Counted from the stretch's first letter, positions 27,806 through 31,244 are shown. The stretch is 40,006 bases of DNA from an uncultured Chthonomonas sp. (GCA_903859705.1 CAIONQ010000054.1:1-40006); one strand, 5' to 3'. Notes: generated from the sequence alone by a model not told the origin. A program made the numbers and translations.

Positions 27806-28744
27806 CTATAAACCTACCGGGGTATTTCCGGATATCAGCAGATCGCAAAGGGCTTCTGTAATTGGGAGGCCGGCAGACTGTTCGTAGTAGGTGTACCCTG
27901 GAGATGGGTTTACCTCAAAGCATACCCAGCGGTCGCCGGTTGGTGAACGGCGCAAATCGATACCAGAAAATGCAAGACCGAGCTCACGAGAGAGTGAAAT
28001 GCACTTGTGGGCAATCTCATGAGGTAGGTCAATGGGCTCAATACAGGGGCTTTCGGAATCGGAATTGGGATAGCGGTAGTCTGCAGCACGGCTGGTTATC
28101 GAACATGCAAACACGCGCTCCGTGCCAAGTATCACATGAACGCGCACATCTGTCCCGGCGACATACTCCTGCATCTGCAGCGGACATGCACAGTTTTTGA
28201 GCCTGTTTATCACATTGTGATCGATCATGGCAACCTTGCTTCTTGTGCCACCTATTGATTTGTAGATGCACTCCGGGTGTTTAGCAAGGAAGTTTATTGC
28301 CTCTGCAGCGTCGGATGTAAGCAAAGTTTCTGGCGTATCGAATCCCGCTGCCTCAATTAGCGAGCTCTGGTATGGTTTTGAACTATTGGAGTGCATTGCG
28401 GACGGACGGTTAATTGCGAGCGCAGGGGTAAGGTCCGCCCACGTAAGCACTGCATCATCAAATAATTGTAATTTCAGCTCGGTTTCTGGATCATCTGCTT
28501 TCGCTGCTTTTAAGATTCGCCGAGAGTCGTAGGGCCGCATATAGAAGGCCGAAACCTGGCTCAGCTCTATTCGGCCAGAGTGAGTTGTAAGGTACCCTAC
28601 TGTTGGGTTGGTTTCTGAGAACTCGATTTCATGCTGACGGAACTCAAACTGATCGAGCCAGATTGTTTCGGCAGCACGGTCAGAAAGTTCTCTGTACACC
28701 GCTTTTAAGGGCCCATCCTGCTTGATGCCCCACAGAACAATCAT
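27806..28744 (-). CDS. RimK-like ATP-grasp ligase, third gene of the kelch operon
   Basis: The 312-residue protein resembles ATP-grasp ligases of the RimK/graspetide (MvdC/MdnC-like) type in length and layout. It has a pre-ATP-grasp region with INRPSAMHSNSSKPYQ (111-126), an ATP-contacting Lys162 in IYKSIGG, a hinge with MQEYVAGTDVRVHV (191-204; Glu193, Asp199, Arg201), Asp263 in GIDLRR and the metal-binding FEVNPSPGY (Glu277, Asn279). Such enzymes activate a carboxylate as an acyl phosphate and join it to an amine or hydroxyl. It overlaps the upstream gene by 4 bp (ATGA). The substrate is unknown; operon context points to a protein or peptide encoded just upstream. Confidence 0.88.
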   Translation of the reverse strand: MIVLWGIKQDGPLKAVYRELSDRAAETIWLDQFEFRQHEIEFSETNPTVGYLTTHSGRIELSQVSAFYMRPYDSRRILKAAKADDPETELKLQLFDDAVLTWADLTPALAINRPSAMHSNSSKPYQSSLIEAAGFDTPETLLTSDAAEAINFLAKHPECIYKSIGGTRSKVAMIDHNVINRLKNCACPLQMQEYVAGTDVRVHVILGTERVFACSITSRAADYRYPNSDSESPCIEPIDLPHEIAHKCISLSRELGLAFSGIDLRRSPTGDRWVCFEVNPSPGYTYYEQSAGLPITEALCDLLISGNTPVGL

Positions 28745-29418
28745 TGGTTACTTCCCTTGCACATACCATCAAGCGGACGCAGCAGTTCTTCGCATGGCGC
28801 GGGCATGGCATTGGCGAATACAAATTCGCCCTCGCTGTTGAAGGCTGCCTGAAGCAGCTTACAGCCAGCAGCATCTGCCAGGCGGAGCGCAGATTCGGCA
28901 GCCTTCGGAGACGGATATTTGATTACTGTGCCATTGAGAACGAGTACTTCGTTCACGTGCATGGTATCGATTGGTTGCAGTTTGGTAGAGCAACGGATGC
29001 GTTCGATAGCAGGTATCCCCAGTGCCGCAGCAGTGCAGCGCCATTTCTCCTGGCGCCAGCCCGGCCCGCAGAGGCTGCCTTCGCCGGGCCCATTTACAAC
29101 CGGAACGGGCAGAGTGGCAAGCCACCACATAAGCAGAGCAGTGAGCTCTGCAGCAACGTATTCCCTGTCTTCCTCCATTATGTGAGAGAGCTCTTGTGGG
29201 TACACCGCAAAGCGGCGTACAAGCACGCCAGAGATTGCCGAAATCTGGCACAGGCTGCCTTCGGCAACAAAGGATCCCTGGCCGGGAGCGGAAGTATTCA
29301 GCTTCCAGCCAGGGCAAGAGAGGTCTCTCACGGAGAGGAGCATGGCCCCGGAAGGGCCAAGAAATGATCTGGCAGCGAGCGCTTCGGGATCGCGCTCGCT
29401 GCCGAGTATCAGGATCAC
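28741..29418 (-). CDS. Half-ATP-grasp-like partner protein, second gene of the kelch operon
   Basis: It starts at GTG, 2 bp after the stop of the kelch gene, and overlaps the ATP-grasp gene by 4 bp. The 225-residue protein opens MILILGSERDPEA, like the pre-ATP-grasp strand of its neighbour. The stretch PVVNGPGEGSLCGPGWRQEK (about 105-124) aligns by eye with the neighbour's INRPSAMHSNSSKP region, followed in both by a helix and a (G)IPAIE/(G)FDTPET strand. The catalytic C-terminal part (EYV...D.R, FEVNPS) is absent. It looks like an ATP-grasp N-terminal half that lost catalysis and may bind or present the substrate. I know no named family for it. Confidence 0.6.
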   Translation of the reverse strand: MILILGSERDPEALAARSFLGPSGAMLLSVRDLSCPGWKLNTSAPGQGSFVAEGSLCQISAISGVLVRRFAVYPQELSHIMEEDREYVAAELTALLMWWLATLPVPVVNGPGEGSLCGPGWRQEKWRCTAAALGIPAIERIRCSTKLQPIDTMHVNEVLVLNGTVIKYPSPKAAESALRLADAAGCKLLQAAFNSEGEFVFANAMPAPCEELLRPLDGMCKGSNQ

Positions 29419-29420
29419 TG

Positions 29421-31244
29421 CTACTCTGCTTCCTTCTCTGCTGTAGGAGTTGAAGAGTGGAGCAGCGGGGTTTCTCCCACTGTGGGGCGCTCCTCTGGTG
29501 TGATTGGCGCGCGTAGCTGCTGCACCTGAGCAGATAAGGCCTCTACCCTATCCGAAAGGGATTGAAGAGCGGCCGTAAGCGCAGGATCAGAAGCAGGCAT
29601 TGTAGGGCCGGGATTGGATAACTGCTGCTGAAGGTTCTGAATGTTCTCAGCATCTTTAAGCTTGTTCTCCACAATTACTTTTTCGAGCTCTTTGATCTCG
29701 TGCTTTTCTACCTTGTGCTCCTTGATTTCGATCTTTTCTACCTTCTCAATCTTCTCGACTTTCTCGATTTTTTCGAGCTTAATCTCCTTAATCTCTTTGA
29801 TCTCGATCTTTTTGAGGCTAATGGTTACACTTTGCGCCGCCGATGGGATACCGTTTGCGATTACCACCATAGAGTAGTTGCCAGTGGGAGCACTTGCAGG
29901 AATGCTTACACTCGTGCTAACTGTTGCGGCACCGGTGGCAATGCCCATGGTGGAGTGGTTTGCAGTTCTGCAGTAGATAACCGCACCGGTAGCGGTGTTG
30001 GTGAGCCGAACAATGGGATAGTTAGTGGCCATCGTGGCGTCATCGCCATAGCAACAGCATTGAGATAGCCCATTTAGCTGATGGCCACTAAGGGTGTAGG
30101 TACCGCCACCATGTACGGATGCCGGGAACGCTGTGATTACAGGCCGCCAAGCGGCATTAGGCGCACCATCCGGGGTGTAGATAGCTATTCTATTGCTATG
30201 GCTGGAGAATAGCACCTGCCCCGTTGGCAGCATAAGCATTCTGCCCGTAAAGCATGGCCCGGATGCGTTAGATGGCGATGCGATTAACGTCGCAAGGTTT
30301 GTTGCCGGATCGTACTCAAGGAACTCGGTTGGGCCAGGGAACGAGCAGGGTGGCGACGGGCTTGCAGCTATCAGCACTTTGCCATTGGGAAGCAGCGCTG
30401 CAGGTGCATCAATAGGAAACAGGGTGTGCCCGGAGCCATCTTTCAGCGTAGGGCCAGCGCTCCAGGTGCCCGGCGAAGCTGGTGCGGGAGACGACGCGTA
30501 GATGGCTGTGTTGCCGGTGGCACCAATGGTGAGTGCATGCCCGGAAGCAAGAACTACTGTTGGGCCGATCTCCGCAACAATACCCGGGCAGCTCTGAGGC
30601 AACGTGGAAGGTGTGTTCCCGGCTGTTACCCAGCTGTTGCTTGCAGGCACATACTTTTCGGAACCGGGTATGGTGGTGCATTGTACCGCCAGCACGGTGC
30701 CATCTGGCAGAAGTGTAAACGACTCTTCAGAGCAGGAATCGAGCTTATTGGGGCCAGCGGTATAGGTTCTGGTAACGGGATCGAAAAACGTGGTCTGGCT
30801 GTTATTCAGATTACCGAGCAACACGCGTCCATCTGGCATTACACATAGCGGTACATCGCCCATCTGTGCCCAGCCGGGCGGAGTAGTAAGGTTTGTCCAG
30901 CTATTTGCCACCGGGTCAAAAAGCGTTGCAGCTGCCATATCGCAGCTAACGAGGTGGTTGTACTCCCCACCGGCAATAAACAGGGTGCCATCTTTCAGTA
31001 CAGCCGAACCAAAAAAGCGTGGGGCATAAGTAGGGCCACCGATGCCAGCGGAGAGCGCTGGATTATCGGGCATAGCTGGCACAGCCAGCCAGGAGCCAGT
31101 TTCATAATGACCGTGGCTATCCGGCACAAGCCGGTGCCAGCTGTGGGTATCCAGTTCATGAGCCATTACCGATCCATCTGTAAGCAAGAGCATGGTATCG
31201 ATATTGGCGGGAGGGTTGGCAATCAGCGACCAGGAACCAGACAT
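29421..31244 (-). CDS. Kelch/galactose-oxidase-like protein with E-set domain and Lys/Glu/Ile-rich tract
   Basis: This 607-residue protein has GAGGAGG before its ATG and no signal peptide. Residues 1-360 hold about six kelch-type units (MLLLTDGSVMAHE, AVLKDGTLFIAGG, CVMPDGRVLLGN, TLLPDGTVLAVQ, ALLPNGKVLIAA, LMLPTGQVLFSS), expected to form a beta-propeller. An E-set domain like that of galactose oxidase follows (about 367-477) with a CCCYGDD cluster (396-402) and NYPIVRLTN. Residues 478-530 are a charged tract of Lys, Glu and Ile/Val in short repeats (KEIKEIK, EKIEKVEK), then a coiled-coil helix (about 533-577) and a Pro/Thr/Glu-rich tail. The Cu-binding residues of galactose oxidase were not evident. 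It heads a three-gene operon with two ATP-grasp-type proteins. Confidence 0.85.
   Translation of the reverse strand: MSGSWSLIANPPANIDTMLLLTDGSVMAHELDTHSWHRLVPDSHGHYETGSWLAVPAMPDNPALSAGIGGPTYAPRFFGSAVLKDGTLFIAGGEYNHLVSCDMAAATLFDPVANSWTNLTTPPGWAQMGDVPLCVMPDGRVLLGNLNNSQTTFFDPVTRTYTAGPNKLDSCSEESFTLLPDGTVLAVQCTTIPGSEKYVPASNSWVTAGNTPSTLPQSCPGIVAEIGPTVVLASGHALTIGATGNTAIYASSPAPASPGTWSAGPTLKDGSGHTLFPIDAPAALLPNGKVLIAASPSPPCSFPGPTEFLEYDPATNLATLIASPSNASGPCFTGRMLMLPTGQVLFSSHSNRIAIYTPDGAPNAAWRPVITAFPASVHGGGTYTLSGHQLNGLSQCCCYGDDATMATNYPIVRLTNTATGAVIYCRTANHSTMGIATGAATVSTSVSIPASAPTGNYSMVVIANGIPSAAQSVTISLKKIEIKEIKEIKLEKIEKVEKIEKVEKIEIKEHKVEKHEIKELEKVIVENKLKDAENIQNLQQQLSNPGPTMPASDPALTAALQSLSDRVEALSAQVQQLRAPITPEERPTVGETPLLHSSTPTAEKEAE
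29655..29813 (-). repeat. Short repeats encoding the Lys/Glu/Ile tract
   Basis: Degenerate 9-12 bp units (on the plus strand TTCTCGATC, TTCTCGACT, TTTTCGAGC) encode EKIEKVEK-like repeats in residues 478-530 of the kelch protein. The tract is conspicuously T/C-rich compared with its surroundings. Confidence 0.7.

Follow-up and report, generated by a model that had tools for sequence, protein, structure and literature searches.

A three-gene cassette was identified in a 40,006-nucleotide stretch of DNA from an uncultured Chthonomonas sp. (GCA_903859705.1, CAIONQ010000054.1:1-40006; hereafter the window), and on balance we lean towards viewing it as a natural system of modular protein stapling. 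In such a system, a graspetide-type ATP-grasp ligase and a catalytically dead docking paralogue would use a portable C-terminal tag to form Lys-Glu/Asp cross-links in the tails of full-sized proteins; it would have evolved from leader-first precursors, and its mature product would be a protein whose tail is covalently locked, with no peptide released. Graspetides themselves are known as small natural products. All three genes lie on the minus strand and encode a kelch protein of 607 residues (29421-31244), a partner of 225 residues with a GTG start (gene 2) and a ligase of 312 residues (gene 3). A gap of 2 bp (29419-29420) separates the kelch and partner genes, and the partner and ligase genes overlap by 4 bp (28741-28744), which agrees with the layout described in an original prediction made from the sequence alone. 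This arrangement is conserved far beyond chance, as a scan of a genome collection recovered 26 loci in Acidobacteriota, Cyanobacteriota, Actinomycetota and Pseudomonadota (identity to the ligase about 35-45%), and the partner was found directly upstream of the ligase, with a tagged protein adjoining, in every one (26/26).

Gene 3 is predicted to encode an intact graspetide-type ATP-grasp ligase. Its top match in the PDB was PsnB (1.2e-21), and a profile of 23 ligase relatives aligned over the full length of PsnB, PruB, MdnB, MdnC, AMdnB and CdnC (1.8e-46 to 5e-28), whereas the alignment of the same profile to RimK was partial and far weaker (3e-10). The catalytic columns listed in Table 1 are invariant across the family, and the graspetide type originally suggested for the ligase is supported. 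The best NCBIfam model was TIGR04187 (1.3e-33), below its curated cut-off; no cut-off for graspetide maturases was passed (116.6 of 350 bits for TIGR04187, 70.5 of 425 for TIGR04185 and 59.9 of 475 for TIGR04184). The Pfam RimK-like domain was passed (27.4, cut-off 21), and the RimK subfamily model TIGR00768 was not reached (47.2 vs 143.4 bits). Because the rimK_fam and MptN models were also matched by 23 of the 23 ligases, and because an acid- and Lys-rich tract in the kelch protein would offer many attachment sites, we considered a RimK/MptN-like enzyme that adds glutamate, another amino acid or an amine to tract side chains, producing a branched tail. This seems unlikely, since the top models and all of the top structures are graspetide synthetases and simple addition would have no need for the ordered 1:1 proportion of Lys and acid. 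The genome of the window carries one copy of this kind of ligase gene. In Leptolyngbya, the ligase (L004:6913-7911) has a C-terminal extension of ~330 residues that is absent from other members.

Pfam and PDB sequence searches with the gene 2 protein returned no match. In contrast to these searches, its structural model (predicted local distance difference test score, pLDDT, 90.8) retrieved graspetide synthetases at ranks 1-32 using Foldseek, and the nine best PDB entries using VIA-align were likewise all graspetide synthetases (Z 17.3-14.7; PsnB, Z 17.3). The central ATP-binding part is missing from the protein, and ATP-site residues were lost in 10 of 10 partners examined, including three longer ones. 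Given a synthetase-like model that lacks both the ATP-binding core and the ATP-site residues, gene 2 is predicted to encode a pseudoenzyme, i.e., a degenerate copy of the graspetide-synthetase fold. Treating it as an ordinary unknown protein was ruled out by the fold of the model. The half-ATP-grasp fold first suggested for this partner is thus retained in the model, but its presence, formerly left unexplained, is now that of a degenerate synthetase kept in every locus and, in a Terriglobia metagenome-assembled genome (L028), fused with the ligase in one open frame. The strict co-occurrence, the 4-bp overlap and this natural fusion suggest that ligase and partner form a complex.

The kelch protein gave only Pfam matches below cut-off (Kelch_6, 2.8e-4; GO-like_E_set, 0.014) and did not reach the curated GlxA cut-off NF052501 (24.2 vs 800 bits). 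The top PDB matches of its AlphaFold2 model were GlxA (5lqi, 1.4e-16) and galactose oxidase (1t2x, 1.5e-16), although the model itself is of low confidence (pLDDT 57, from an alignment of two rows). Within that limit, the carrier part of the protein is predicted to adopt a galactose-oxidase-like kelch propeller with an E-set fold, and the kelch/E-set identity assigned earlier is upheld by the model matches despite the sub-threshold Pfam scores. Carriers at other loci are unrelated: besides kelch (window and L090), they comprise Peptidase_M6, Peptidase_S8, Peptidase_C13, trypsin-like and DUF6519 proteins and a 263-residue domain in L004. The tract and a short tag are common to six unrelated carrier types, and carriers are swapped around an otherwise constant gene pair. 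No Sec-like N-terminus was found on any of the carriers, some of whose start sites are uncertain; the absence of a signal peptide from the window kelch protein, which had been remarked on before, is therefore a trait of the whole family. Adjoining the Peptidase_S8 cassette is a 908-residue protein with GDSL lipase, trypsin-like peptidase and endonuclease/phosphatase domains (L108:11824-14550).

The tag has the consensus F-[IV]-x4-R-P-x-[LV] across cassette proteins and follows a short helix in most of them. Its strict form occurred 41 times in 774,475 residues of six-frame open reading frames from all loci, a count that includes overlapping loci, and every occurrence was in a cassette substrate. 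Usually, a folded protein of 260-1200 residues carries the tag C-terminally. In L026 (Elioraea) and L091 (Acidobacteriota), the substrate is instead a small stand-alone protein in which an N-terminal tag is followed by the tract. From these sequences, the tag rather than the tract appears to be the most conserved substrate feature; the tract emphasized in the original prediction does recur, but it is not the best conserved element, and the short tag had escaped notice. Since nothing but the tag is conserved among unrelated carriers, the tag is the likely docking site. A DNA-level scan of 11 genomes for additional tagged substrates was noisy, and its two best additional matches look spurious. 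Beside the stand-alone substrate of L091, a second small open reading frame (L091:4404-4784) has a MSVRDLLTLLG-like segment in common with it, without tag or tract.

The conservation of the tag, together with the observation that only a few tract residues are left in some loci (L004, L090, L104), would also fit a ligase that modifies the tag, residues beyond the tag or the carrier C-terminus, with the tract serving as a mere spacer or helical rod. We judge this to be quite improbable, as the tag has no constant Lys, Ser or Thr donor and its x4 positions vary, the tract alone comes after the N-terminal tag of L026 and L091, and the ordering of Lys and acid would require another cause. This ordering was apparent when 24 substrates were pooled: an acid directly followed Lys 2.7 times as often as in shuffles (z 27) and stood at i+4 after Lys 1.6 times as often (z 9.6), whereas the reverse i+4 order, acid then Lys, was reduced to 0.59 times shuffles, these lags not being independent of one another. 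In most loci, Lys and acids make up almost equal fractions (~1:1). The tract lies between carrier and tag and measures 56 residues in the window, which supports the Lys/Glu/Ile tract reported at first but not the length of 53 residues given for it. Alignment of the two kelch proteins shows the pair K522...E526 to be kept (KVIVE in the window, KIVAE in L090).

Cross-linking of Lys to Glu/Asp is to be weighed against several unfavorable observations. The window tag has no Phe, and that of L090 (VIQSLELPKV) has neither Phe nor Arg. Gene 3 scores well under the TIGR04187 cut-off, and the i+4 bias is absent from the window tract (z -1.6) and from L026, where the register is Glu-Lys-x. The Variovorax tails (L007) have no KxxxD/E pair at all, and a tract so rich in charge can form a simple helix with no modification. 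Lastly, a long tract is nearly absent from L004, L104 and the kelch homologue L090, all of which keep both ATP-grasp genes. Loss of the tract beside a retained ligase pair is what the original prediction had named as evidence against itself, and it is partly borne out here: the tract recurs on unrelated carriers beside the same pair, with Lys and acid ~1:1 and ordered, but in these three loci only the tag and short pairs remain (L004, KDVTD; L090, KREFD/KIVAE; L104, KIGKE/KENGE), weakly above shuffles (0.29, 0.052 and 0.019, respectively). Donor/acceptor patterning of the core is thus present overall and weak in L004, L090 and L104. A strict need for a long tract was ruled out by these loci. 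Because they keep the ligase pair, the tag and one or two Lys...Glu/Asp pairs, a long tract does not appear to be obligatory, whereas a minimal Lys...Glu/Asp core may be.

Even so, the ligase/pseudoenzyme pair probably serves, directed by the tag, to cross-link Lys with Glu/Asp within the tail of a large protein. The complex would dock on the kelch protein at the short tag close to its C-terminus, the ligase would phosphorylate Glu/Asp side chains of the adjacent Lys/Glu tail, and the activated acids would be joined to nearby Lys amines as isopeptide bonds, the bond type expected from the chemistry known for this ligase family. The product would be a folded protein of full size whose tail is stapled covalently, stiff and resistant to proteases; this tail may be used as a tether or assembly module. 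As the carriers have no Sec signal, the product would be made in the cytoplasm, and cytoplasmic production with non-Sec release may be the theme common to the carriers.

Phylogenetic analysis placed the ligases in one clade (support 100/99). Its deepest branch consists of L026 and L091, whose partners are longer but dead, and support for the remaining clade was moderate (93/88). The stand-alone, tag-then-tract proteins of this deepest branch suggest a leader-core precursor as the origin of the tail-borne form. The family is rare and widely scattered among bacteria: in whole-genome samples, with counts that include the centre genomes, the partner profile was found in 3 of 291 Acidobacteriota, and the ligase profile (E < 1e-84) in 3 of 292 Cyanobacteriota, 1 of 398 Pseudomonadota and 3 of 396 Actinomycetota. 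A plasmid collection gave one distant match only, and a viral collection one locus (L104).

In one locus (L106:2707-17574, Methylocystis), a DUF6519 carrier, partner and ligase come after two Baseplate_J genes and a weak CIS_tube match, and this is the only cassette beside which genes of an extracellular contractile injection system (eCIS) were seen. DUF6519 corresponds to eBAP5, described as an eCIS tail fiber (PMC12923769); given this and the position of the cassette in an eCIS operon, the L106 substrate is probably an eCIS tail fiber. Some other cassette substrates are also DUF6519 proteins, but the carrier of the window is kelch/galactose-oxidase-like, and no eCIS genes were seen around its cassette, where RNase II was identified on one side using Pfam and the other neighbors were judged by eye only. 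The fiber connection, the short conserved helix before the tag and the ability of ThfB to cross-link assembled chains (PMC12291112) would be compatible with inter-chain welding, whereby tails bundle as helices and the ligase joins them into covalent oligomers or fibers. We give this little credence, as the stand-alone precursors of the basal branch resemble ordinary intramolecular substrates. PADLOC matched none of the cassette genes to a defense system.

Intramolecular stapling has partial precedents. CorB, a TIGR04187 enzyme, makes Lys-Asp isopeptides (KxxxD, i,i+4; KIVAD) in five repeats of corallotide, a group 15 graspetide of Corallococcus (PMC13097080), and the best hidden Markov model for gene 3 is of the same family. 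The corallotide precursor CorA is likewise large, with repeated Lys...Asp cores and isopeptide bonds, but it is ~22 kDa with a helical leader domain at the N-terminus and an oxygenase, and no partner pseudo-synthetase, enzyme or fiber carrier or FIx4RPxL tag has been described for it. Graspetides at large (microviridin MdnB/C, plesiocin PsnB, prunipeptin PruB, chryseoviridin CdnC) share the ligase fold, catalytic residues and a short recognition motif, which in many members begins P-F-hydrophobic (Phhx(1,2)h; PMC8939145). However, known members modify small precursors whose leader is N-terminal, a form (N-terminal leader, C-terminal core) found here in L026 and L091 only and not in the 607-residue window substrate. 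A fuscimiditide leader moved to the C-terminus still guides its synthetase (PMC13003496); there the recognition sequence after the core was engineered, whereas here it is natural. Rosaritide MirB requires a co-encoded partner, MirC (PMC13097080), but MirC is SurA-like with an RRE-like domain and the cassette partner is a dead synthetase copy. Whole proteins can be cyclized by a synthetase (PMC12291112). The class of chemistry, the dependence on a partner and the acceptance of a C-terminal leader are already known (PMC13097080, PMC12291112, PMC13003496, PMC8939145). No description of a natural system that combines a portable C-terminal tag with a dead synthetase partner and full-sized carriers was found in open-licence literature, nor any graspetide-kelch, ATP-grasp-subtilase-isopeptide or ATP-grasp-eCIS link, which is not proof of novelty. 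Groups 32 (diverse neighboring proteases) or 41 (large precursors) of PMC13097080 may overlap with the cassette family.

Table 1 Features of the cassette in the window.
Feature	Position	Strand	Basis
Carrier: galactose-oxidase-like kelch propeller + E-set domain (predicted), residues 1-476 of 607	29817..31244	-	Pfam, AlphaFold2 model, Foldseek GlxA 5lqi 1.4e-16
Lys/Glu/Ile tract, residues 478-533, proposed cross-linked core	29646..29813	-	30% K, 30% E; Lys-Lys spacing of 3, shuffle p 0.008
K522-V-I-V-E526, Lys...Glu i,i+4 pair	29667..29681	-	Kept in tract-poor kelch homologue L090 (KIVAE); cf. corallotide KIVAD (PMC13097080)
Short helix preceding tag, residues 554-577	29514..29585	-	Conserved pattern L-x2-R-[VLI]-x2-L-E/S-x2-V
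Putative docking tag PITPEERPTV, residues 580-589	29478..29507	-	Diverged form of F-[IV]-x4-R-P-x-[LV]
Partner, degenerate graspetide synthetase without ATP-binding core (predicted pseudoenzyme)	28741..29418	-	Model, structure matches, residue mapping
Predicted graspetide-type ATP-grasp ligase	27806..28744	-	K162, R201, D263, E277, N279 invariant in family

Other loci departed from the standard layout. Two (L092:7068-7965 and L094:6852-8038) have a ligase with a mere partner fragment and no tagged protein found, and represent decayed or rearranged cassettes. An actinomycetotal second-tier ligase has no partner (L100:4969-7497); the C-terminus of the metallopeptidase upstream has repeats (KFRDDPVGT...) like the KIVADDP of corallotide, which points to graspetide-like cores having appeared on a protease tail a second time, independently. 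A cyanobacterial cluster (L098:5445-8367) encodes a small protein with KQPFIQDTFRRDTLLDL, a protein of 262 residues that resembles a half-ligase and a ligase that carries a long extension at its C-terminus, and DUF5682 and VWA_CoxE genes lie upstream of a Leptolyngbya cassette (L109:6755-10413).

If correct, modular stapling would add a class of bacterial protein modification that mature-protein databases would miss, and would give C-terminal recognition, hitherto reported as engineered, a natural precedent within graspetide biosynthesis. It would also tie peptide-ligase chemistry to injection-system fibers and to proteases without signal peptides, and would offer a ready tag-and-ligase tool for covalent protein stapling.

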